Notes under the pieces: generated by a model | What the model saw: only the letters and a program-made list of their open reading frames with translations | The model's database searches: none | What the model was told of the DNA's origin: nothing | Translations under genes and position numbers: made by a program | NCBI RefSeq assembly: GCF_000802245.2 | Contig: NZ_CP021080.1 | Coordinates: 2,914,001 to 2,978,000, forward strand | DNA length: 64,000 nt | Source: Streptomyces pluripotens | Lineage (GTDB): Bacteria > Actinomycetota > Actinomycetes > Streptomycetales > Streptomycetaceae | Direction: 5' to 3' | In this document: positions 39,369 through 51,592 of the stretch, one piece after another | Layout: every line of letters begins with the position of its first letter | How positions within the stretch are numbered: position 1 is the first letter of the stretch

Positions 39369-40154
39369 ATGCATCGCGGTGGCGGACTGGGCGAGGGGAC
39401 TGACGACCTGGGTCCTCGGCGTGCCCGGCGGGGAAGGCACCGGCGCGACGCGGAGGAAGCGACCGAAGCACGTCAGACTGACTCACGTCAGGCACAGGGT
39501 GTACCGAGCGACCCCGAGCGACACGACCGGCAGATCGACCGGCAGATCGACCGGCAACTGGACCGCTCTCTGGACCAGCAGGCGGACCGGCCTGTTGACC
39601 GGCGGGCGGACCGACCGCTTGACCGGCAGGCGGACCGGCCGGTCGAACGCCGGCTGGACTACCGGGTGGAAGAACGGGTGGACCGCCTGCGGGCGGGGAG
39701 CGGGAATGGTGGCCGGGTGGGGGTGACGTACAAGTACTTCGGCGCGCCGGACGGCGCGACCGCGGCCCGCGTCCCCATCTCGATGCGCCCCGAGGAACTC
39801 GGCGGCGACGAGTTGGGCATGAACGGCATGTTCACCAAGATCAAGCCAGAGACGATGGCCGCGATGGTGCTGACCGGCATCGAGGGTGTGCCCCTGCACA
39901 GGGTGCCGCCCCTCGAACTGGTCGTCCTGCACCCCGACTACGCGGTCGTCAGACTCCCCATGACGGTCGTCGACCCCCTGCGCGGCATCGGCGAGGAGGC
40001 GGTCGGAGCGGCGGCCTTCATCTGGTCGACGGTCCCCGACCGGGGTGGCCCGCGGGACGCGTTCAACGTCTACCAACTGCTGCACGAGTGGCAGGACTTC
40101 AGCCACCGGTTGCATGAGGCGGGGCATCAGCCGTATTGCCTTGTGTGGCCCTGA
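39369..40154 (+). CDS. Conserved actinobacterial protein used as integration target
   Basis: A 261-residue protein. Residues 50-105 are low complexity: a repeated four-residue pattern DRQI/DRQL/DRPV (for example DRQIDRQIDRQLDRS). The folded C-terminal part of about 145 residues starts at TYKYFGAPDGATAARVPIS and ends in QPYCLVWP. No catalytic motif is evident. A GGAG lies just before ATG 39369. Its last 75 bases are the attachment target of the island that begins here: the 22-bp core lies at 40079-40100, and codons after it are synonymous variants of those at 49605-49658. Confidence 0.75.
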   Translation: MHRGGGLGEGTDDLGPRRARRGRHRRDAEEATEARQTDSRQAQGVPSDPERHDRQIDRQIDRQLDRSLDQQADRPVDRRADRPLDRQADRPVERRLDYRVEERVDRLRAGSGNGGRVGVTYKYFGAPDGATAARVPISMRPEELGGDELGMNGMFTKIKPETMAAMVLTGIEGVPLHRVPPLELVVLHPDYAVVRLPMTVVDPLRGIGEEAVGAAAFIWSTVPDRGGPRDAFNVYQLLHEWQDFSHRLHEAGHQPYCLVWP

Positions 40155-40174
40155 GCTGGGGTTTCTTGGGGCTT

Positions 40175-40203
40175 GGGCGGGGTCTTCGGGCCTCGCCCTT
40201 TTT
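40175..40203 (+). terminator. Terminator after the target gene
   Basis: GGGCGGGG pairs with CCTCGCCC (one G-T pair) across an 8-nt loop, followed by TTTTT. A related hairpin follows the copy at 49658. It may serve the plus-strand gene and insulate the convergent integrase. Confidence 0.7.
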
Positions 40204-40221
40204 GGTGCCGGGGCGGGGGCG

Positions 40222-40950
40222 TCAGGCGGCCAGGGCACATTGAGGGCACATCGGCTTTGCCGGGGGTGGTGATGTGCCCTGGGTTGCGGGCGGGCCGCCG
40301 TCGTCTTCCACTCCCTCCTCCGCCTCGGCTCCCGTTTCCGCTTCCGTTTCCGTGAAGGCGTCGTCGATCGCCTTGCGGATGCGGATCTCGCTGGACGGCA
40401 GCAGGTGCGTGTACGTCCGCAGCGTGAAGCCCGGGTCCGAGTGGCCGAGGTACTCGGAGAGCGCCTTGATGCTCTCCCCCGCGTCCAGGAGCACAGAGGC
40501 GTACGCGTGCCGGAGGGCGTGCATGCCGTCCTCCGGGGCCGCCCGGAGGTAGCGCGCACCGCGCTCGCGGGGAGGGATCACGCCGGCGGCGGCCAAGGCG
40601 CGCTTCCAGTCACCCATGTTGAAGACGCTGCGGTTGTACGCCCAGCTCTTCGTGTCGACGAAGAGAAGGCAGAAGGTCTTCGGCTCACTGCCCGGCCTGG
40701 CCCACGGGAGGGTGACCTCGACGGGCGGGAACTCCTTCATGTGAGCCTTGAGGGCCGAGGCGAGCTGAGCCGACAGGGGCACGGACCGGATCCTGTTGCC
40801 CTCGGGCAGGGCGAAGACGGGCTTTGTGCCGACGAGCCGCACCTGGCGGTTGACGTGGATCCAGCCGCCCTTGAAGTCGATGTCCTCGGCTGCGAAGCCG
40901 AACACCTCGCCCTGACGCAGGCCGCAGCCGAAGGCGAGCTTGCCGCCGGC
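40222..40950 (-). pseudogene. Tyrosine integrase, catalytic domain only
   Basis: The C-terminal catalytic domain of a phage-type integrase remains with all expected residues: Arg in GCGLRQGEV, HALRHAYASVLL with His and Arg, His in YLGHSDPG and Tyr in TLRTYTHLLP. The N-terminal SAM-like arm- and core-binding domains are missing. At about 40950 the frame runs into sequence that is antisense to a relaxase, so a deletion joined the two genes. The tail is Glu/Ala-rich and ends in a Cys-pair motif (KPMCPQCALAA) whose DNA forms the arm-like repeat at 40232-40251. Confidence 0.85.
40232..40251. repeat. Pair of AGGGCACAT arm-like repeats
   Basis: AGGGCACAT occurs at 40232-40240 and 40243-40251, 11 bp apart, with an inverted single copy (ATGTGCCCT) at 40272-40280. 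The same pair recurs at 49457, 57173 and, inverted, 57762. The position at the integrase end beside the attachment core suggests arm-type integrase sites. Confidence 0.65.
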
Positions 40951-42053: not shown

Positions 42054-42578
42054 TTACCGCCCCCGGGCCTCGGTGAGTGCCGTCACCAGCACGTCCAGGT
42101 CGCCGGTGTAGACGATCACGTCCTCGTCGTCGGCCGGAGGGGCGAAGCGGGCGAAAAAGTCGTCCAGGGCTTCGGGGGTGACGGTCAGCGCGTTGGCGTC
42201 CTCGCGTGCGTTGCGCTCGGCCAGGCGCCGCAGCAGCTCGTCGCGGTCGGCGGGGAGGTAGACCACAACGGGCAGGCCACCCGCTTCGCGGGCGGCCTGC
42301 CGCCAGACGTCGCGCTCGGCACGGCGCCACAGGCCGTGGTCCAGGACGACGTCGTTGCCGGCCTCGATCTCCTTGATGAACCGGTCCCGGGTCGCTTCGA
42401 CCACGGGCCGTTCGCGCTCGAAGTAGGTGTGCTCGGGGTAGTCCACGCCGTACCGGCCGTGGAGGCGGTGGACCTCTTCGTCCACGGACAGCCTCAGGTA
42501 GCCGCGGGCGGCCAGGGCCTGGGCGACGGTGGTCTTTCCGGAGCCGGTGAGACCGGCCAGGAGTACGGCGAGTGGCAC
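42054..42578 (-). CDS. Small P-loop kinase (AAA/zeta-toxin-like)
   Basis: A 174-residue ATP-binding protein. Walker A is LLAGLTGSGKTTVAQAL; LSVDEEVHRLHGRYGVDY and DVVLDHGLWRRAERD supply the acidic residues typical of small-molecule or nucleotide kinases such as YdaG/zeta-type. GTG 42578 is 49 bp after the upstream glycosyltransferase gene, so it is the last gene of that operon. It may phosphorylate the sugar or product made by its neighbours; this is inference. An upstream ATG at 42650 is in frame. Confidence 0.78.
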   Translation of the reverse strand: MPLAVLLAGLTGSGKTTVAQALAARGYLRLSVDEEVHRLHGRYGVDYPEHTYFERERPVVEATRDRFIKEIEAGNDVVLDHGLWRRAERDVWRQAAREAGGLPVVVYLPADRDELLRRLAERNAREDANALTVTPEALDDFFARFAPPADDEDVIVYTGDLDVLVTALTEARGR

Positions 42579-42627
42579 GGGGGGCTTCCTTCCGCGACAT
42601 GCTGTCCGCGCGTGCGAGCGTTGCCTG

Positions 42628-43500
42628 TCAATCCTGGCCGCTGTGGGCATGCGGACGCCAGGTGGTGAAGATGTTGCGGGCCTCGGAGGGCCAGCTGAAG
42701 GGCATCCGGTCCAGACTTGCCCGGCGGAAGGCGAACCGCGGATCGCTGGTGTTGATCACGCCGCCGTGCTGGCCGACGTGGGCCAGCAGGCGTCCGGCCT
42801 CGTCGCGGACGGCCGGGGTGTGCTCCTGCCAGGTGCCGGTGGTGAAGTGCTGGACCCGTCGGCGAAGGTCGTCCAGGACGCCCGAGCGCCACTTGAAATG
42901 GTGAACTGCGCAGATGCGGTCCGCGTCGGGCCGGTGGCCCGGAGAGCGGTGGTTGCCGGAGGAGACGGTGACGTCGTGGCGGGCGAGGACGATCTTCCTC
43001 GGGTCACCGTGCAGAAGCCGGTGGGTGAGGTGGCCGCCGAGGGGATAGGCGAGATCGAGGCCGCCTTCGGGCCGCCAGCCGGTCAGGCGTCCGCTCGCGG
43101 CGACGCGGTCGAGCATCAGACCGCCCACCACCCGGTGTCCGGACTTGTCGGCCTGGGCGATCACCTCGTTCAGCGGGGCGGGGTACTGCTGGAACTCGTC
43201 GGCGTCGGCCAGCAGGTGCCAGCCGGGACCGGCCCGGTGCCGCAGGGCGTCGCGGAGCTGGGTGTTGGTGTGCTCGTGCCACGGGCCGGTGCTGGTGCTG
43301 GTGCCGGTGGGGATGATGCCCAGCTCGCGGGCGGCGGCCTGGAGCTCATGTCGTTGCCGGTCGGGTACGTGGTCGGGGAGGTGGAAGGCAATCAGGAACC
43401 GTTCGACGCCCAGCCACCGGTAGTGGCGGGCCCAGGCGGCCAGCAGCGGCGGCTCGACGGGGCCGACGACGGCGATCAGCGCGGGAGGCGTGCTCGGCAT
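42628..43500 (-). CDS. Glycosyltransferase, GT92/GT2-like
   Basis: A 290-residue protein with an N-terminal ALIAVVGPVEPPLLAAWARHY and a clear DxD metal motif, WHLLADADEFQQYP, near residue 120. This is the layout of the GT92-like family annotated as glycosyltransferase family 2 relatives. Later parts include AVHHFKWRSGVLDDLRRRV. ATG 43500 directly follows the stop of the upstream gene with no gap, indicating coupling. No membrane segment is seen, so it acts in the cytoplasm. Confidence 0.78.
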   Translation of the reverse strand: MPSTPPALIAVVGPVEPPLLAAWARHYRWLGVERFLIAFHLPDHVPDRQRHELQAAARELGIIPTGTSTSTGPWHEHTNTQLRDALRHRAGPGWHLLADADEFQQYPAPLNEVIAQADKSGHRVVGGLMLDRVAASGRLTGWRPEGGLDLAYPLGGHLTHRLLHGDPRKIVLARHDVTVSSGNHRSPGHRPDADRICAVHHFKWRSGVLDDLRRRVQHFTTGTWQEHTPAVRDEAGRLLAHVGQHGGVINTSDPRFAFRRASLDRMPFSWPSEARNIFTTWRPHAHSGQD

Positions 43501-44730
43501 TCAGGACTCCTTCGTGCGCAGGGGAGCGAAGGTGCGGGTGAGGAAGTCGGCCTGCTCGGCGGCCGACCGCATCCCGAACAGGCCCGGGGCCGCCGGTCCG
43601 GGCAGTGGGGGTGGCTGGCGGATGACGGTGTGCAGGGCGTCCGCGAGGGCGTCCGGGTCGCCGGCGGGGAACGTCAGGGCCCAGGGCTGGCCGTGCAGGC
43701 GGGCGGTGAGGGCGTCGTCGTGTTCGGAGATGACCAGGGGGATGTCGAGGCGGGCGGCGTCCATGACGAGTCCGGACTCCTTTCCGGTCCCGGGACGGCG
43801 GGCGACGAGAGCGGCGTCGGCGGCGGCGTACACGAGCCGCAGCACTGACTCGCTGACCGGACCGGGCACGGTGTGCACCCGCAGATCGGGCAGGGACCGC
43901 CATCGCTCAACGACGGCCTCGTCGAGCGGGGAACCGGTGACCACCAGGTGCAGGGGCTCCTTGAGCCGGTCCAGGGCGGCGTCGACGACGGCGATGTCCT
44001 TGTAGGGCCACCAGCCGCCGACCAGGCACACCACGGCCTCAGAGGCGGGGATGTCGAACGCGGCCCGGCCTCCGTCGCGTTCGGCGTCGCTCAGGCAGCG
44101 GCCGTCATCGACCGCGAAGGCACCCACCACCGCGGGCAGGTCAGCGAAGGTCGCGGCGAACTGATCGCCAACAGCCTGCGTCGGGTACACGGCGATCACC
44201 CTTTGCTCGCCCCGGCGGGCGAGCCGGCCCAGCAGCCGCACCACGGCGTCCTCAGTGGTGACCGCCTCGTGGACGAACCGCAGGTGCGGCTGCCCGCCGA
44301 GGAGGGCGGCGGCCCCGTGCAGGGCCTCGCTCGCGGTCAGGATCACCACCGCGTCGGCGCCGGGCTCCAACCGACGAGCGGACCGCAGGGCGGACGCCTC
44401 GGCCAGGCAGCGGGCGAGGAGGGTGATCTGGTGCGGCACCCTCCGCAGACGGCCAGGCCAGCGGCGCGAACAGAGGACCCGCTGCCCGGCCGAGGAGAGC
44501 CCGGCCGCCAGCCGGGCGAAGGCCCCCAGCACGGTTGCCGCCGCCCCGGCCGGTGCGGTCACCAGCCCGGCGTCCGCCTCGCGCAAGGTACGTACCACCT
44601 CGGAGGCGATCCCGTGCGGTGCGATGACGAGGCTGCCGGGCCGGGCCTGGGCGAGGGCCACCAGCGTGCGCTGGTGGTGCCCGCCCAGGCGGTTCGCGTA
44701 CGGCTCGATGAGTACGAGCGGGCCGGTCAT
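43501..44730 (-). CDS. Glycosyltransferase, GT4-like (GT-B fold)
   Basis: A 409-residue protein with an N-terminal LIEPYANRLGGHHQRTL acceptor domain and a C-terminal donor domain. The latter has VVCLVGGWWPYKDIAVVDAAL, then the E-x7-E-like region RRPGTGKESGLVMDAARLDIP near residue 330. ATG 44730 overlaps the preceding gene by four bases. Substrates are unknown. It is the third of the operon's four glycosyltransferase genes. Confidence 0.75.
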   Translation of the reverse strand: MTGPLVLIEPYANRLGGHHQRTLVALAQARPGSLVIAPHGIASEVVRTLREADAGLVTAPAGAAATVLGAFARLAAGLSSAGQRVLCSRRWPGRLRRVPHQITLLARCLAEASALRSARRLEPGADAVVILTASEALHGAAALLGGQPHLRFVHEAVTTEDAVVRLLGRLARRGEQRVIAVYPTQAVGDQFAATFADLPAVVGAFAVDDGRCLSDAERDGGRAAFDIPASEAVVCLVGGWWPYKDIAVVDAALDRLKEPLHLVVTGSPLDEAVVERWRSLPDLRVHTVPGPVSESVLRLVYAAADAALVARRPGTGKESGLVMDAARLDIPLVISEHDDALTARLHGQPWALTFPAGDPDALADALHTVIRQPPPLPGPAAPGLFGMRSAAEQADFLTRTFAPLRTKES

Positions 44731-45431
44731 CCGGACACCGCCTGGTCCCCGTGGGCGGCGGTGAACCTCTCCCGCAGCCAGGTGGGGTCGTTGAGGTGGT
44801 CGAACTGCTGCGGGTCACGCGCGGCCTGGCGGGCGAAGGAGACGCCCTCCCTGGCCCCGGCAGCGGCGTAGGCGGCGAACTCGCCGCTGCGGCTGAGCAT
44901 CCAGGCATCGACACGCTGGTGGGCGTCGTCGTCGGCCATGCTGTGCTCGCTGCCGCGGGCGAGCATCGCGCACTCGCGGAAACCGGCCTTCCAGGTGTGG
45001 AAGGGGCTCTGGTTGAACCGCGTGATCCCGGCAGCGTGCTCGGTGAATTCGATCCGCCCGGGCAGAGCGGCAAGTACGTCCACGGCCTCGCCCATATCCC
45101 GCAGAGCACTGCGGCGGATCAGCTTCAAGCCGCCGTAGCCGTAGGTCAGACCGTTGACCGGGTTGACCGCCCGCCACACCCGCATGGAGACGCCCTCCTC
45201 CAGCAGTTCGACGGTGGCCGGATCGAAGTCGGTGTCGATGGCGAAGTCTCCGTCGGCGAGGAAGAACTGCTCGCGCTCGACGACCTCGGCGCACAGCCGG
45301 TAGGCCCGGCGCATCCCGTGGACCCCGTGCAGGCGCTTGACGGTGCCGCCCATCGTCCGCTGGAGCCGGGAGTGCAGGGAGTTGGCCATCGGCTCGTCGT
45401 ACGACAGGAACACGGCGTCGAAGCCGGTCAC
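44727..45431 (-). CDS. Glycosyltransferase-like protein with DxD motif
   Basis: A 234-residue protein with the pattern of small GT-A enzymes: VTGFDAVFLSYDEPMANSL at the start and a DxD stretch FFLADGDFAIDTDFD near residue 70. Downstream, NGLTYGYGGLKLIRRSAL and a short Asp/His tail follow. GTG 45431 overlaps the upstream gene (GTGA). It could also be a nucleotide-sugar-dependent modifying enzyme of unknown type. Confidence 0.65.
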   Translation of the reverse strand: MTGFDAVFLSYDEPMANSLHSRLQRTMGGTVKRLHGVHGMRRAYRLCAEVVEREQFFLADGDFAIDTDFDPATVELLEEGVSMRVWRAVNPVNGLTYGYGGLKLIRRSALRDMGEAVDVLAALPGRIEFTEHAAGITRFNQSPFHTWKAGFRECAMLARGSEHSMADDDAHQRVDAWMLSRSGEFAAYAAAGAREGVSFARQAARDPQQFDHLNDPTWLRERFTAAHGDQAVSG

Positions 45432-46588
45432 GAGATCGCCTCCAGGTAGCGGGCAGCGACCAGGGCGGGGGCAAAGTCGGCAGTGGAGGCGTGCGCCCGC
45501 TTGGCGTGGACGGCGTGGAACTCGTCGTCCGTGGCCAATCGCTCGGCCAGGGCGACGGCCTCGGCCGGGGTGGAGAAGCACAGCTCCGGGTCGACGTGCT
45601 CAGCGAGCCAGCCCAGGCGGGGCGAGATGACCGGAAGGCCCATGCCCTGGCAGTCGATCACGCTCATCGACCATGGGCAGCCGGGCCTGAATGGGGCGAT
45701 GCCGAAGCGGGCGCCGGCCAGCAGGTTCTTGTAGCGGACGCGGTCGGCCCGGTCGGAGACGACCTGCACGTGCGGCAGCGCGGCGAGCCTCTCGCGCATC
45801 TTCTCGGGGCTGTCGTCCAGACCCTTGCGCTCGGCCCGGCGCTGCCCGAACAGGTCCATCACCCGCAGCCGCACCGCACCGGAGTCACTGAGTCGGCGGG
45901 CCAGGTCCACGAACTGCTCGGTGCCGTAGTGCGCGTACAGCCGGTGGTTGTAGACACCGATGGCGCCGACCGTGCCGGAGGCAGCCTGAACCGTGGCGGG
46001 ATCGCGGACCAGACGCTCGTCACGCGGTGCGGGCACCACCCGCAGCCGGTCGCCCAGGTCCACCGTCATCCGGGCAGCGGCGGCCGACACCCACGAGGTG
46101 GCCGTGGCGGAGTGGACCATCACCCGGTCGCACGCGGCCAGGCCCGCGGCGAACGCCAGCAGCACAGGCCGCCCGAGCCCCGCGTCGTCCAGCGACGGGT
46201 CGAGCAGCATCTGCCCACCGCCCGCGAACGAGAACGGCAGGTAGTGGCAGTACCCGGCCAGCAGCGCATCCGACCCGGCCTCCAGCAGAGCCGTGCGGAC
46301 AGCCGGGGCCTCCTCGATCTGGTTGGCCACCACCACATCCGGCTTCTCCGAACCGATCAGGGCCACCAACTCGTCGATGTCCGCGGAGAACCGGGCCCGG
46401 TACTTCGTTCCGGGCACCTTCGTCCGGTGGAATCCGCAGCGGGCATCCCCGGCCGCAGCCGGGGCCGCAACGGTCACTTCCGCCCCGGCGTCGGCCAGGG
46501 ACGGGGCCAGCAGATCCGCGAAGATCCACCCCGAATCCGCCGACAACCGGTCGGGGTTGGAGATGTTGAGCAGGTACAGCACGCGCAT
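45428..46588 (-). CDS. Glycosyltransferase, GT4/GT1-like
   Basis: A 386-residue GT-B enzyme. The N-terminal domain starts MRVLYLLNISNPDRLSADSG; the donor domain holds GVYNHRLYAHYGTEQFVDLA and the late FGIAPFRPGCPWSMSVIDCQ-type motif (GIAPFRPGCPWSMSVIDC, GMGLPVISPRLGWLAEHV). ATG 46588 has GGAGG eleven bases upstream; a longer frame to 46687 is not needed. It is first in the five-gene leftward operon and divergent from the XRE gene. Confidence 0.76.
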   Translation of the reverse strand: MRVLYLLNISNPDRLSADSGWIFADLLAPSLADAGAEVTVAAPAAAGDARCGFHRTKVPGTKYRARFSADIDELVALIGSEKPDVVVANQIEEAPAVRTALLEAGSDALLAGYCHYLPFSFAGGGQMLLDPSLDDAGLGRPVLLAFAAGLAACDRVMVHSATATSWVSAAAARMTVDLGDRLRVVPAPRDERLVRDPATVQAASGTVGAIGVYNHRLYAHYGTEQFVDLARRLSDSGAVRLRVMDLFGQRRAERKGLDDSPEKMRERLAALPHVQVVSDRADRVRYKNLLAGARFGIAPFRPGCPWSMSVIDCQGMGLPVISPRLGWLAEHVDPELCFSTPAEAVALAERLATDDEFHAVHAKRAHASTADFAPALVAARYLEAIS

Positions 46589-46672
46589 GGTTGCTTCGCC
46601 TCCCTCATCCGCCCGGGGGTCGATCCGGGCAACTGAGGGAAGGAAAACGGCGACGCACACCGTGACGGGATG

Positions 46673-46698
46673 ATGAACTTGGATCACTCACGGTTCAT
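46673..46698. promoter_or_regulatory. Divergent promoter region with small inverted repeat
   Basis: ATGAAC and GTTCAT form a 6-bp inverted repeat with a 14-bp spacer, in the 147-bp gap between the glycosyltransferase operon and the XRE gene. It is a candidate XRE operator. The repeat is short, so chance is possible. Confidence 0.35.
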
Positions 46699-46735
46699 TC
46701 ATGCTCACTGACCATGACGCGGGGCAGGTCTTTCG

Positions 46736-47710
46736 ATGGACGCGCACAGCGAAGAGATCACCGTCGAGCAGGCGGCCGAGGACTTCGCGGCCGAGGTAGC
46801 CAGATGGCGGGAAGTACGCGGCATGTCCAAGCGGGCATTAGCGCTGGCCATGGGCTTCGACCCGTCCTACGTCAGCCACGTCGAGTCCGGCCGCCACAAG
46901 CCCACCGAGGAGTTCGCCAGGCTCGCCGACGAGCACCTGAACGCCGGGAAGGCGATTTGGCGGCGCTGGTGCGACTACGAGCAGGCCCGCACGAAATCCA
47001 GGCGCCAACCCACGACCCCACCGGCCCAGCGCAGGCCCGAGCAGCCGTACGCCACCGGGTCCGCCCTCGTCGTCGAACACGACGCCGCCCGCCTCCAGTA
47101 CGACGGCCACTCCTACCGGCTCACCATGAGACGGCTCCTGCGGAACACCGGCGACGACCCGGTGACCCGCTACCTGATCCGCGTCTCCGTCGACCGCTAC
47201 CCCGGCGACCCCGAGCAGTCCAACGCCCACTACCGCGTCCACCCGCTGACCTGGGACGAACTCGCCCTCACCGCCACCTGCCGCGGCGAGGCGATGCGCT
47301 GGCAGGCCAAGCACGACCGCGACGCCTTCAAGGAGGTCTGGCTGCTGTTCGACAACGAACACGGCCGCTTCCCGCTCTACCCCGGCGAGTCCGTGTGGAT
47401 CGAGTACGCCTACACCGTCGGCGACGACAAATGGGGCAACTGGTTCCAGCGGGCCGTCCGCCTGCCCACCGAACAACTCGAAGTCCAGCTCGCCTTCCCC
47501 GCCGCCCTCGACCCCGTCGTGTGGGGCACCGAGACCTCCATGACCGCGGAAGCCTCACCCCTGCGGACCCCGCCCGTCCGCAGCGACGACGGTGAACTGA
47601 GGCAATTCACCTGGATCACGACCACGCCCGCCCTCCACGCTCGGTACCGTCTTGAGTGGAGGTTCCGGGCACGGCCCGAACACAACACGGAACAAGGGGA
47701 CTTCAGGTGA
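46736..47710 (+). CDS. XRE regulator with large beta-rich C-terminal domain
   Basis: A 324-residue protein. Residues 20-75 are a helix-turn-helix (VARWREVRGMSKRALALAMG and PSYVSHVESGRHKPTEEFA). After a Pro/Arg linker, residues 105-315 form a Trp/Tyr- and Arg-rich domain (YLIRVSVDRYPGDPEQSN, LLFDNEHGRFPLYPGESVWI). I do not recognise the family; it looks like a ligand or stress sensor. It overlaps the deformylase gene by four bases (GTGA), so the two are co-translated. Confidence 0.8.
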   Translation: MDAHSEEITVEQAAEDFAAEVARWREVRGMSKRALALAMGFDPSYVSHVESGRHKPTEEFARLADEHLNAGKAIWRRWCDYEQARTKSRRQPTTPPAQRRPEQPYATGSALVVEHDAARLQYDGHSYRLTMRRLLRNTGDDPVTRYLIRVSVDRYPGDPEQSNAHYRVHPLTWDELALTATCRGEAMRWQAKHDRDAFKEVWLLFDNEHGRFPLYPGESVWIEYAYTVGDDKWGNWFQRAVRLPTEQLEVQLAFPAALDPVVWGTETSMTAEASPLRTPPVRSDDGELRQFTWITTTPALHARYRLEWRFRARPEHNTEQGDFR

Positions 47711-48273
47711 TTGACGTGCGGCCCAGCCAACAGATGCGCGACCTCGGAGTCGTCCAGCACGGCGCCGGCATCCTGGCCGAACCGGCCCGCGCCTTCACCC
47801 TGCCCGCCGAGCGCGACGAGGCCGAGCGCATCACCGACGAACTGTTCGCCGCGATGGAACGGATCGGCCAGGTCCACCCCTTCGCCAAGGGCATGGGCAT
47901 CGCCGCCCCGCAGATCGGCATCGGCCGCACCGCCGCCGTCGTCCAGCCGCCCGGCGACACACCCGCCGTCATCCTGCTCAACCCGAAGATCACCGACCGC
48001 TCCGACGAACTGGACGAGCAGTACGAGGGCTGCCTGAGCTTCTTCGACGTCCGCGGCCTCGTCCCCCGCCCCCTGAAGATCACCGTCGAGACCACGACCC
48101 TGACCGGCGAGACCATCACCACCGTGTACGAACGCGGCCTCGCCCGCCTCATCCACCACGAGATCGACCACCTCGACGGCCTGCTCTACACCGCCCGCAT
48201 GCGCACCGGCGTCGCCCCGATCCCCGTGGAGGAGTACCGGCAGACCGGCAGGGCCTGGGCATACGAGCAATAG
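47707..48273 (+). CDS. def: Peptide deformylase, accessory copy
   Basis: Metalloenzyme that removes the formyl group from nascent proteins. All three motifs are present: GMGIAAPQIG, EGCLSFFDVRG and HHEIDHLDG (metal His, catalytic Glu). The 188-residue size is normal. Start GTG 47707 overlaps the XRE stop. Chromosomal deformylases are usually next to fmt or infB, so a copy tied to a regulator and sugar transferases on an island suggests a special role, such as resistance to a deformylase inhibitor or processing of a small peptide. Confidence 0.93.
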   Translation: MIDVRPSQQMRDLGVVQHGAGILAEPARAFTLPAERDEAERITDELFAAMERIGQVHPFAKGMGIAAPQIGIGRTAAVVQPPGDTPAVILLNPKITDRSDELDEQYEGCLSFFDVRGLVPRPLKITVETTTLTGETITTVYERGLARLIHHEIDHLDGLLYTARMRTGVAPIPVEEYRQTGRAWAYEQ

Positions 48274-48329
48274 TCGGGACAGCACCTTCTGGACTGACCT
48301 GGCAGATGTCGACCAGTCCGGGCAGCAGG

Positions 48330-49037
48330 TCAGCTGGCTCCGGCTGACTCCTCAGGCAGCGCAACGGGACGCAGCACCGTCAGGGAATCTTCCTGACTAG
48401 CGACCATTGTGAAGGGGAACCTGTCCACCTGCAGGCACAGGTCGACATCGTCGGGGTGAACGCCCTGGTATCCACGTCGAACCCCGTCGTCGAGATCGGT
48501 GGCTGCCCAGGAGGTTCTCGCACGGTGGAGAAACGGGGCTGCCTCAGCATCGACTCCGGCGAGACGCTGACCGATGTATTCAGCGCAGGCCAGGTCCTCA
48601 GCGGCCTGGCCATCGTCGCCGGTGATCACGAACGTCACCGGCCCGGAACCATCCATCTTCAGAAAGCGCGCTGTCGCACCGGCCACGACGAAACTCGCGC
48701 ACAGAACCAGCGGCGCGCTCGAAACGGCCAGCGCGCCGACGGTTCCGGCCGTCGTCTTCTGCACCAGAGTGCGACCGGCCAGATCGAGTGACCTGATCAG
48801 ACCGGGCGAGTTCACCGTGTCGAAGCCCGTTGCTGGGGCACCGTCCTTCAGGGCCAGCCAGCCCGAGCAATTCTCCTTCAAGGCCAGCGCCTCGGCGTCG
48901 GACGGGGCCAGGACGATCTTCTCTGCACCCCGCGAAAACGCCCAGGCAGCCACGGTGAAGGCCCGCATCACGTCGACGACAACAGCAACGCGCGGAACGT
49001 CCGTCAACTCCGGGATACCGACGAAACGATGATCCAT
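48330..49037 (-). CDS. 2-phosphosulfolactate phosphatase family protein (ComB-like)
   Basis: A 235-residue ComB-fold phosphatase. Recognisable parts are [40 protein letters not shown] and [14 protein letters not shown]. ComB removes phosphate from 2-phosphosulfolactate in coenzyme M synthesis; bacteria without coenzyme M also carry it, with roles mostly untested. It converges on the deformylase gene. Start ATG 49037. Confidence 0.8.
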
Positions 49038-49476: not shown

Positions 49477-49582
49477 AGCCTGGGAAGAGGCGTTGAACCA
49501 TGAGAACTTCCGAGAGGAGTTTTCCCAGGTCAACGCACATTTCCCTGCGAAATCCGAGGCCAGCGCCCTCCCGTCACCAGTC

Positions 49583-49658
49583 GCTGCACGAGTGGCAGGA
49601 CTTCTCACACCGGCTGCACGAGGCGGGGCACCAGCCCTACTGCCTGGTGTGGCCCTGA
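49583..49658 (+). repeat. Right attachment site and duplicated 3' end of the target gene
   Basis: The first 22 bases equal 40079-40100. The next 54 bases encode the same peptide end (HRLHEAGHQPYCLVWP) and stop, with synonymous changes such as CTG for TTG and CAC for CAT. The sequence after the stop also resembles 40155-40280, including a hairpin and an integrase tail. Preceding codons are unrelated to the target gene, so no functional protein is expected. Confidence 0.85.
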
Positions 49659-49724
49659 GCGGGGTTTCTTGGGGGTCGAGCGGGGTCTTCGGGGCCTCGC
49701 CCCTTCCGTGCCTGGGAGGAGCCT

Positions 49725-50148
49725 TCAGGCGGCGAGGGCACATTGGTTTTGCTGGGGGCGGTGATGTGCCCTGGGGCTCTCCGGTTTCCGACGGCGGCGC
49801 GCCTGTGAAGGCGTCGTCGATCGTCTTGCGGGTGCGGGTCTCGCTGGACGGCAGCAGGTGTGTGTACGTCCGGAGCGTGAAGCCCGGGTCCGGGTGGCCG
49901 AGGTGCTCGGAGAGCGCCTTGATGCTCTCCCCCGCGTCCAGGAGCACAGAGGCGTACGCGTGCCGGAGGGCGCGTGCATGCCGTCTTCCGGGGCCTCTTG
50001 GAGGTACCTCGCCCCGCGCTCGCACGGAGGGATCACGCCGGCGGCGGCCAGGGCTCGCTTCCAGGCACCCATGTTGAAGACGCTGCGGTTGTAGGCCCGG
50101 CCCTTCTCGTCGACGAAAAGCAGCCGGAAGGTCTTGGGCCGCGCCTGG
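49725..50148 (-). pseudogene. Second tyrosine integrase fragment, frameshifted
   Basis: Homologous to the integrase at 40222-40950 but shorter. The frame RPKTFRLLFVDEKGRAYNRS continues to EDGMHA; then two extra bases near 49971 shift the frame, and the rest (ALRHAYASVLLDAGESIKAL, HPDPGFTLRTYTHLL) is read in another frame. The tail has a single AGGGCACAT at 49735-49743. At about 50148 it joins a WbqC-like gene. Not functional. Confidence 0.82.
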
Positions 50149-50387
50149 CTGATCAGCGTCGGGCGCCCATGTGGAAGGTGCGTCGGGAGCGTGGGCCACT
50201 GCTGCCGACCAGGATCGTCCAAGGCGGCCAATCGGGCGCGGTGCTGGAAATCGCGCCGGGCGAACTGCACGTCGGTCAGGACGATCCATCGGTCGGCGGC
50301 GAAGAGCTTCGCCAACGTGGACAGCCGTGGGAACAGGTTCGGCTGGTGGATCGCGCACACCCCGCCCGACGAGCGGACATGGGACAA
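50149..50387 (-). pseudogene. N-terminal fragment of a WbqC-like protein
   Basis: Seventy-nine codons from TTG 50387 match the start of WbqC family proteins: GGVCAIHQPNLFPRLSTLAK and WIVLTDVQFARRDFQHRARL. The catalytic and remaining parts are lost where the frame enters the integrase fragment. It would start one base after the ydcF-like stop, so it was once in that operon. WbqC proteins are found in sugar-ligand and lipid-A-like modification gene sets. Confidence 0.75.
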
Positions 50388-50388
50388 C

Positions 50389-51078
50389 TCAGGTGCTGAT
50401 GAGGCGGCTGTCGAAGCCGGCTCCCAGGAGACGCTCGTACGCGTCATACACATCCCCCGGTACGTGCTGCTCGACGGCGAAGCCGAGCTTCGGGTACTCG
50501 ATCACCCGTTGCAGGTCCCCGACAAGCATGTCGACGACGAGCTTCTCGTCGCCGATGGACTTGATGTAGTCGTCCAGTTCCAGCGGCTCTGAGGCACAGA
50601 CAACCTCTGCCTCGGGCCACAGCTTGCGGCAGGTCGCGTACGAACGGCGCTCCATGTACGGCTTGGAGATCAGCAGCAGCGACTCGACCGCGATGCCGGC
50701 CTCGGCCAGCAGCTCGCGGGAGAAGGTGATGTTCTGGCCGGTGTTGGCCGCCTTCGACTCGACCAGGATTGCTTCGTCCGGAACGCCCAGGCTCAGGGCA
50801 TGCTCGCGATAGTGGACGGCCTCGCCGCGCGGGAAGCGGGCGCGGGTGGTGGGGCTGTTGCCGCCGCTGAAGACCACGACCGGGAAGAGGCCGGCACGGT
50901 AGAGGTCGGCGGCTGTGGTGGCCACGCCCAGGTCGTGGCTGCCGAGGCCGATCGCTGCCGAGCAGGGCCGCTGCTCGTGGCCCATCTGGTGGTAGTTCCA
51001 GATCAGCGTCGCGTCGTGGAACTGCTCGTCGGTGATCTGGCGCTGCTCGTGCTGCGGCACTGGCACTCCCTGGCTCAT
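50389..51078 (-). CDS. YdcF/DUF218 family protein
   Basis: A 229-residue ElyC/SanA/YdcF-type protein. It shows the family core AAIGLGSHDLGVATTAADLY and VVVFSGGNSPTTRARFPRGE, followed by ILVESKAANTGQNITFSREL. No signal peptide or membrane helix is visible, unlike SanA, so it is cytoplasmic and could bind SAM or a nucleotide. ATG 51078 overlaps the end of the broken regulator gene (ATGA). Confidence 0.85.
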   Translation of the reverse strand: MSQGVPVPQHEQRQITDEQFHDATLIWNYHQMGHEQRPCSAAIGLGSHDLGVATTAADLYRAGLFPVVVFSGGNSPTTRARFPRGEAVHYREHALSLGVPDEAILVESKAANTGQNITFSRELLAEAGIAVESLLLISKPYMERRSYATCRKLWPEAEVVCASEPLELDDYIKSIGDEKLVVDMLVGDLQRVIEYPKLGFAVEQHVPGDVYDAYERLLGAGFDSRLIST

Positions 51079-51480
51079 CCCTGCTGGCCTCTTCGGATGC
51101 TCTCGATGCTGCGCAGCTGGTGGCTCAGCCCGTACTGCCGAGCCACCTGCGCCGCCTGATCGAGGTCGGACAGCCCATCATTCCGGGCCGCCGCGTCCGA
51201 CAGAAGGATGTGCCCGTAGGCGGTGTCCAGCCGCACCCGCTGCATCGGGGGAGTCGACCGTGCCGGTGGTGCGCGCGATGTCGATGCGGTGCAGGGCCTA
51301 CTTCAGGTCGCCAGCGCCTCGGTGAGCCAGGGCCAGCTTTTGGTGGGCGACCGACCAGTCCTCCGGCTCGCCTAGGTCCTCGAAGGAGCGGGTGGCCTCG
51401 ATCATGACGCCGGTCGCGTACTCGTTGTCGCCCTCCTTGTTCAGCGCCGTACCCACCCAGAGCCGGGCCCTGGCACGATC
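51075..51480 (-). pseudogene. C-terminal remnant of an XRE/TPR regulator
   Basis: Tetratricopeptide-like sequence reads ARARLWVGTALNKEGDNEYA, then SFEDLGEPEDWSVAHQKLAL, before a TAG stop near 51300. A further shift lies near 51255 in the TTGTVDSP region, and the last part (LDTAYGHILLSDAAARNDGL, QYGLSHQLRSIESIRR) is read in another frame down to the ydcF start. The helix-turn-helix is absent. This is the typical end of Streptomyces XRE/TPR regulators that precede ydcF. Confidence 0.72.
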
Positions 51481-51592
51481 GTGCGTCGTGGGCCCGCCCC
51501 TTCTCGTCGGCGAAGAGAAAGCGGAAGGTCTTCGGCCCGCCGTCCGGCTTGGCCCAGGGCAGGGTGACTTCGACCGGCGGGAGCTCCTTCAT
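51481..51592 (-). pseudogene. Third integrase fragment
   Basis: Some 36 codons (MKELPPVEVTLPWAKPDGGP, then KTFRFLFADEKGRAHD) match the middle of the integrase at 40222-40950, where MKEFPPVEVTLPWARPGSEP is found. It ends at the regulator remnant. It is further evidence for repeated insertion and deletion in this block. Confidence 0.75.

Follow-up and report, generated by a model that had tools for sequence, protein, structure and literature searches.

Accessory peptide deformylases carried on mobile DNA were described by Lamberioux et al. in 2025 (PMC12690207). As far as the available parts of that paper go, they resemble the enzyme considered here in being extra deformylases with complete motifs on mobile DNA, and a change of arginine to tyrosine at position 97 of an accessory deformylase gives resistance to actinonin. 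Extra deformylases on mobile DNA are usually taken as drug-resistance genes or spare housekeeping genes. Two groups of regulators are also close. In the ImmR-ImmA modules of integrative and conjugative elements, an XRE-type regulator lies beside a metal-dependent hydrolase (excerpts of PMC8960796 and PMC10233336), and the GntR/KorSA regulators of actinomycete integrative elements, such as SCO3932, are mobile-element regulators at a shared divergent promoter; SCO3932 acts also on secondary-metabolite genes (excerpts of PMC8584621). In this report, we compare these systems with a locus from Streptomyces pluripotens, located in a stretch of 64,000 nucleotides (contig NZ_CP021080.1, positions 2,914,001 to 2,978,000) that is called the window throughout. 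In this locus, an operon for four glycosyltransferases (GTs) and a kinase faces a gene pair for an XRE regulator and a peptide deformylase (PDF; gene, def). The pair, whether split or fused, is referred to as the handle.

We consider it rather likely that the cassette in the window belongs to a family of modular, mobile cassettes in which a constant switch, composed of XRE, M1-aminopeptidase-N-like (M1N), and deformylase domains, controls a swappable metabolic cargo. The handle is read as a reusable control module because the same handle is found to face unrelated operons. An earlier note on this DNA, made from the sequence alone, had described an operon of glycosyltransferases and a kinase opposite an overlapping regulator-deformylase pair, and this arrangement was confirmed at window positions 42054-48273. 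The operon is on the minus strand and opens with a GT-B glycosyltransferase of the GT4 type (45428..46588; Pfam Glyco_transf_4, E 6e-7 on 45428-46591), the start of which was set at 46588 from the gene caller and the intergenic alignment. It is followed by a GT-A-like protein of 234 aa that has no Pfam family and serves as the cassette marker (44727..45431), a second GT4-type GT-B enzyme (43501..44730; Glyco_trans_1_4, E 7e-8; cluster 2), a GT2-like enzyme (42628..43500; Glyco_tranf_2_4, E 2e-7; cluster 3), and finally a P-loop kinase (42054..42578, with the start given by the gene caller; AAA_33, E 7.4e-26 on the longer open reading frame (ORF) 42054-42650). Searches of PHROGs and NCBIfam returned no match for any of the four glycosyltransferases, and the kinase had no blastp match at 1e-5 to the kinases of other cargoes. 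On the plus strand, the XRE gene (46736..47710) overlaps the deformylase gene (47707..48273) through the sequence GTGA.

The conservation of this arrangement was determined in two samples. The even sample contains 249 Streptomycetaceae genomes and is less biased than the 107 fetched loci, which are composed of the window, 15 plasmid loci, 80 genome loci, and 11 loci from viral contigs. The genome loci are the best 80 of 310 relatives by similarity to the window, and GT-bearing loci are over-represented among them; two places on one plasmid (L044 and L046) are both counted. Genes were called with a codon-usage script that set some handle starts wrongly. In the even sample, the XRE protein was found in 45 of the 249 genomes (E 1e-15) and the 234-aa GT-A-like protein in 15. 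The gene for the latter adjoins a divergent XRE gene in 14 of these 15; the fifteenth genome has only two pieces of the protein, on separate contigs, and no XRE match. The regulator is rare across the phylum, being present at E 1e-12 in 3 of 396 genomes, one of which is the genome of the window.

The first glycosyltransferase gene was found in the divergent operon of 48 of the 107 fetched loci, and the GT cassette is the commonest form of the handle among these loci, ranked as they were by similarity to the window. The first pair of glycosyltransferase genes in the GT-operon loci overlaps by 4 nt in 45/45 cases and the second pair in 42/44. The kinase is optional, since it is in line in only 20 of the 42 loci that have the fourth glycosyltransferase. 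The gene following def was called in 45 of the 48 GT loci, and the 45 genes form 43 separate clusters; the end of the cassette is therefore placed just after def. Pairwise distances for the first glycosyltransferase were correlated with those for the XRE protein (r = 0.884, n = 48), the deformylase (r = 0.773, n = 47), and the other operon proteins (r = 0.735-0.931), and in each of the six tests 0 of 500 permutations gave an equally high value. The cassette is carried on plasmids of S. enissocaesilis and S. rochei, and plasmids of S. cellulosae have a partial cassette with the first two glycosyltransferase genes. Its occurrence in Nocardia nova (L103) as well as on Streptomyces plasmids points to transfer between families. 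This comparison indicates that the handle and the glycosyltransferase operon move and evolve jointly, and the GT cassette is, judged from its sequences, a conserved mobile unit, as the 14 of 15 genomes had suggested.

The earlier note had proposed that the two halves of the locus belong together and that finding the pair apart from the glycosyltransferases would count against it. The co-occurrence held but exclusivity did not, since 31 of the 45 genomes with the XRE protein have no GT-A-like marker. The occurrence of the pair without the glycosyltransferases makes the handle the constant part and the operon one of several cargoes, and does not dissolve the system. The regulator and deformylase are fused in a single ORF in 39 of the 107 loci and separate in 64, of which 51 have the 4-nt overlap; three loci have no called XRE gene, and one, where the stretch stops just past XRE, has no def. 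The names of cargo genes on plasmids are those of the existing annotation, and those for L154-L156 were read from the sequence. Facing operons other than that of the window were found to contain QueD/QueE/FolE genes with a thymidylate-kinase-like gene, radical SAM, DegT, and HAD genes, or a gene for a nonribosomal peptide synthetase (NRPS). The operons of L154 and L155 are likewise long and of the deazaguanine type, and they contain QueC/QueD/QueE-like genes with glycosyltransferase, DegT, Gfo/Idh-like, and HAD-like genes. Further cargo types include radical SAM with creatininase, arylsulfotransferase, glycosyltransferase, methyltransferase, and kinase genes; AMP-binding and ketosynthase genes with a uracil-DNA-glycosylase-like gene (L156 has the same AMP-binding/ketosynthase type); dTDP-glucose dehydratase with ATP-grasp and DegT; Gfo/Idh/MocA with DegT; and, in Nocardia wallacei, PTPS with a FolE-like gene. 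In L041 and L043, the facing operons are long, with deazaguanine-type and thymidylate-kinase-like, radical SAM, DegT, HAD, and SAICAR-synthase-like genes.

A second conserved pairing of handle and cargo involves D-Ala-D-Ala-ligase-like, PALP, and C39-like genes, which are 50-54% identical across loci. This cargo faces a fused handle on a Nonomuraea plasmid and split handles in Kitasatospora or Streptomyces loci. It was seen in L070, L086, L093, L158, and L035, and the Kitasatospora/Streptomyces loci also have Mur-ligase-like genes and a small protein of 62-64 aa.

The distribution of cargoes was mapped on a tree of 114 handles, from which L046 (the duplicate of L044) and rows with fewer than 200 aligned XRE residues had been removed. 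The GT label requires 11 changes on this tree against 37.1 when shuffled (0 of 500 shuffles as low), and 48 of the 49 GT rows lie within one well-supported branch of 61, in which the remainder have other cargo or disrupted operons. The whole label set, in which 13 rows (the 11 viral-contig loci, L113, and L122) are mobile-looking or have no class, requires 27 changes against a shuffled mean of 62.1 (0 of 200 as low). With so few changes, the cargo seems for the most part to have been passed on together with the handle, though it was lost or replaced in some cases. One clade of eight handles lies in integrated elements with an integrase relative nearby, and five of the eight also have relatives of DUF3987 and GntR. 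Integrase relatives were found in 9 of the 24 loci checked (one only 31% identical), and integrase, DUF3987, and GntR together in 5 of the 24. In L150, Phage_integrase, HTH_17, and DUF3987 genes lie beside the handle. By its integrase, excisionase-like, and replication-type genes, this class would fit an actinomycete integrative and conjugative element. The 11 viral-contig loci have none of the integrase, DUF3987, or GntR relatives, except for a weak integrase match in one. Some other loci differ in their surroundings. In six Micromonosporaceae loci (L114, L117, L118, L119, L123, and L126), a fused handle without the 11-bp repeat described below adjoins a FhuF-like gene, and this may be a resident chromosomal version. 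One Nocardia plasmid has two oppositely oriented copies of a stretch of more than 15 kb that contains the handle, MazF, and ParAB genes (L044/L046).

The shared promoter region of the window contains a putative operator on the plus strand (46662..46708), in which GTGAC and then TGAAC are followed by TCACTCA and TCATTCA with a period of 11 bp. The alignment of 47 intergenic regions of the GT class, with regions outside 60-260 nt left out, gave GTGAC..TGAA..TCACTCACGGTTCAYTCA, with the elements spaced in 11-bp steps. The repeat was scored as a TCAYTCA pair at 11 bp with at least 12 of 14 matches, and as a description of the loci viewed, it precedes 48 of 49 handles of the GT class and 36 of 57 handles of other classes, in a scan affected by mis-called starts in at least seven loci (L039, L040, L041, L044, L062, L083, and L087). 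Dinucleotide shuffles gave the 11-bp period in no more than 0.5% of cases (0.1% for the GT-class loci), and neighboring periods occur in only 0-4 of the 57 non-GT loci. At 13 or more matches, there are 88 sites in the 2,196,057 bases of 114 loci; 85 are no more than 260 nt from the called start of a handle, and the remaining three precede handles with mis-called starts. On comparison of these loci, the phased repeat is specific to handle promoters and lies in the shared divergent promoter region. The window's genome has a single site with no more than one mismatch, at window positions 46684-46701, and for this reason the regulator most probably has no target beyond this region, where it would control its own gene and the divergent operon.

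The deformylase belongs to Pep_deformylase (PF01327, E 1.5e-32) and contains the three catalytic motifs GxGxAAxQ, EGCxS, and HExDH, which were matched by script. All three are intact in 123 of 125 handle deformylases, and one of the two exceptions is truncated where its contig stops. At E 1e-40, a relative was found in 52 of the 249 Streptomycetaceae genomes. The genome of the window has three other deformylase matches that are 30-35% identical to the cassette copy, and a housekeeping deformylase is ruled out by these other copies together with the presence in only 52 of 249 genomes. The earlier note had suggested a resistant enzyme. The actinonin-contact residue, placed relative to motif II by the numbering of the E. 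coli PDF, is an arginine seven residues past the motif-II cysteine in 124 of 124 handle deformylases, and the XRE-deformylase unit also occurs with unrelated operons or with none; the suggestion was dropped as the main reading. A Def2-type resistance deformylase, for which Tyr97 is expected, was likewise rejected. With its motifs intact, three other copies in the genome, and the arginine kept, the cassette deformylase is, as far as its residues tell, an intact extra copy without the mark of actinonin resistance. In L090 (10969-12188) and L102 (1062-2278), tandem deformylase genes follow the XRE gene, and the second is about 50% identical to that of the window.

The XRE regulator has a helix-turn-helix (HTH) domain at about residues 16-77 (HTH_31 and HTH_3, E 2.3e-11 and 7.9e-7), followed at about 106-312 by the large beta-rich domain that had been noted as unrecognized. 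No sequence search recognized it: there is no Pfam match at E 0.1, to Peptidase_M1_N or otherwise, and of the searches of PDB sequences, one gave two chance-level matches (E 0.016 and 0.78) and another gave HTH and marginal matches. In the proposed comparison by structure, the predicted fold of this domain is that of the N-terminal domain of M1 aminopeptidases (Peptidase_M1_N, PF17900), and its matches in the PDB are the N-terminal domains of M1 aminopeptidase and LTA4H, and Ost1.

The genes beyond the cassette were also compared. The ComB (2-phosphosulfolactate-phosphatase) family gene lies next to the cassette at 48330-49037, and its relatives at 60-77% identity were found by tblastn, at positions that had no annotation, on 13 actinomycete plasmid records; its cluster contains the protein of the window alone among the neighbors compared, and it is not a member of the system. 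The YdcF gene and the WbqC piece at 49725-51060 (WbqC, E 2e-6) were rejected as members because they form a separate pair on other Streptomyces plasmids, and the HAD fragment was rejected as well. These neighbors had been thought to be part of the system, and that view was abandoned. On two Streptomyces plasmids (L195 and L196), the YdcF-WbqC pair lies behind a hypothetical gene of about 367 aa. Two copies of an integrase end with its flank, at 40072-40684 and 49576-50139, are 78-96% identical and 9.5 kb apart, and they bracket the cassette. A further piece of similar protein sequence, with no Pfam match, is at 51125-51592. The window carries an integrase ORF and a relaxase ORF, and an integrative and conjugative element is a candidate only. 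Comparison of the flanks gave no clean empty site; 13.3 kb separate them in the window and about 49 kb in the relative G251, where the two were on a single contig.

The handle would then be a one-component switch composed of an XRE domain that binds DNA, a domain of the M1N fold that binds a ligand, and a deformylase, made as one protein or from two coupled genes. The XRE domain would bind the phased repeats and set transcription both ways, of its own gene and of the divergent operon. The kinship of the M1N-like and deformylase domains suggests that they form the sensing end, for a peptide N-terminus or a formylated small molecule, and deformylation of a peptide-like or N-formylated ligand could reset or switch off the signal. 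The handle is thus pictured as probably a local ligand-sensing switch for peptide-like or formylated ligands. In the window, the four soluble glycosyltransferases, with or without the kinase, may assemble a short oligosaccharide, possibly a phosphorylated one, on an acceptor that is small or soluble.

Several observations weigh against this model. The repeat is in 0 of 7 Micromonosporaceae loci and was not found in 21 of the 57 other loci, some of which have truncated handles or mis-called starts. The GT class is also enriched for the half-site at periods of 9 and 10 (20/49 and 16/49), a backwards control pattern likewise has one match in the window's genome, and the 11-bp form was recognized after the GT and other loci had been viewed, so that the upstream counts are not an independent test. 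By the rule used, 29 of the 107 loci have no divergent operon, although at least three of these (L036, L039, and L045) have one by annotation; control of cargo may therefore not be the sole role of the handle, and its first role may be to control the mobile element itself. The idea of a sensor depends on the predicted fold match. A comparison by hhalign of the C-domain with 14 M1-N stretches of relatives gave nothing (with few effective sequences), and with no profile similarity to M1-N, the fold match may not imply peptide binding. In addition, an XRE relative with the same C-domain (L203:12305-13432) has no deformylase match within its 16-kb stretch; it is divergent from a gene that was named nucleotidyltransferase-like from its sequence and has no Pfam match.

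A switch of the ImmR-ImmA kind, in which XRE represses genes of the element or cargo, the deformylase serves as a metal-dependent antirepressor under stress, and the cargo is a passenger, would account for the coupling or fusion of XRE with a metal-dependent hydrolase, which recalls the regulator-protease tandem in the excerpts of PMC8960796 and PMC10233336, and for the clade of eight handles in integrated elements and the other handles on plasmids. We regard it as unlikely, because the hydrolase is a deformylase with the three PDF motifs and not an M78 protease, and the scan of integrated-element loci gave no further copies of the repeat, for example at int. Membership in the ImmR-ImmA module itself was rejected, since an M78/COG2856 partner is expected and Pep_deformylase is present. 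The patchy and mobile distribution of the handle (45 of 249 genomes) and its swappable cargo would also suit an anti-phage or abortive defense, in which the handle is the infection sensor, responding for instance to a surge in formylated nascent peptides, and the enzymes of the operon produce or alter an effector or a surface molecule. Three Streptomyces plasmids (L043, L045, and L039) carry CRISPR type I-E cas genes downstream of the handle, within about 3 kb in two and about 9 kb in the third. In PADLOC, however, the nine proteins scanned gave no more than partial matches of the P-loop and HTH kind, all of them weak (E 4e-5 to 8e-4), and the cargoes resemble small-molecule chemistry more than known effectors, which makes defense quite improbable.

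Enzymes of the GT4, GT2-like, and GT-A types are typically found in loci for envelope glycans, and genes of the sugar-nucleotide or aminosugar type adjoin some of the other handles. An ordinary operon for surface-glycan modification, with a local regulator and an incidental deformylase, is nonetheless very unlikely: conserved clusters 0-4 include no flippase, polymerase, ligase, or sugar-nucleotide gene, and the deformylase has kept its motifs in 123 of 125 cases and is fused in 39 of 107 loci. Least probable of all is self-resistance to a deformylase inhibitor made by the cargo. Gene clusters for such inhibitors are known to hold PDFs of this kind, and accessory PDFs are often mobile (parts of PMC12690207), but the handle enzymes have arginine in 124 of 124 cases where the resistant accessory PDF has tyrosine, the cassette has no NRPS or polyketide synthase (PKS) gene, other handles have unrelated cargo or none, and the enzyme comes with a transcription regulator, to which it is fused or coupled.

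The modular cassette with a constant switch is thus the reading that we retain. A bolder version, possible but doubtful, is that the handle represents a new class of one-component switch in which the deformylase is a signaling enzyme: XRE with the aminopeptidase-like domain would read N-formylated peptides, which could indicate that translation is under stress, that the cell is infected, or that a peptide signal is present, and the deformylase would end the signal. If this is true, mobile elements plug different small-molecule operons, oligosaccharide-making in this case, into the same divergent promoter. That a group of actinomycete deformylases is linked with a sensor that binds DNA and with a specific putative operator suggests that these enzymes serve in regulation. 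A recognizable switch that faces many mostly uncharacterized operons could also serve as a search key for silent small-molecule clusters and possibly as a way to activate them.

The control module appears to be undescribed in the open-access literature, since no description of the XRE-deformylase protein was found in the papers searched, and a term search of the main text of PMC12690207 found no mention of XRE, HTH, or helix-turn-helix. The handle enzyme differs from the accessory deformylases of that paper, as far as its available parts describe them, in having arginine in 124 of 124 cases where their resistance residue is Tyr97 and in having as its fused or coupled partner a regulator that contains a sensor-like domain. 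Relative to ImmR-ImmA, as given in the excerpts cited above, a deformylase replaces the ImmA metalloprotease, an M1N-like middle domain is present, and a metabolic cargo faces the switch. Unlike the M1 aminopeptidase and LTA4H N-terminal domains and Ost1, the handle domain has no catalytic M1 domain, Pfam match, or profile similarity, and it sits behind an HTH domain. The handle regulator is also of a different family from GntR/KorSA, as the excerpts of PMC8584621 present it, and several integrated-element loci have a GntR gene beside the XRE-deformylase gene.

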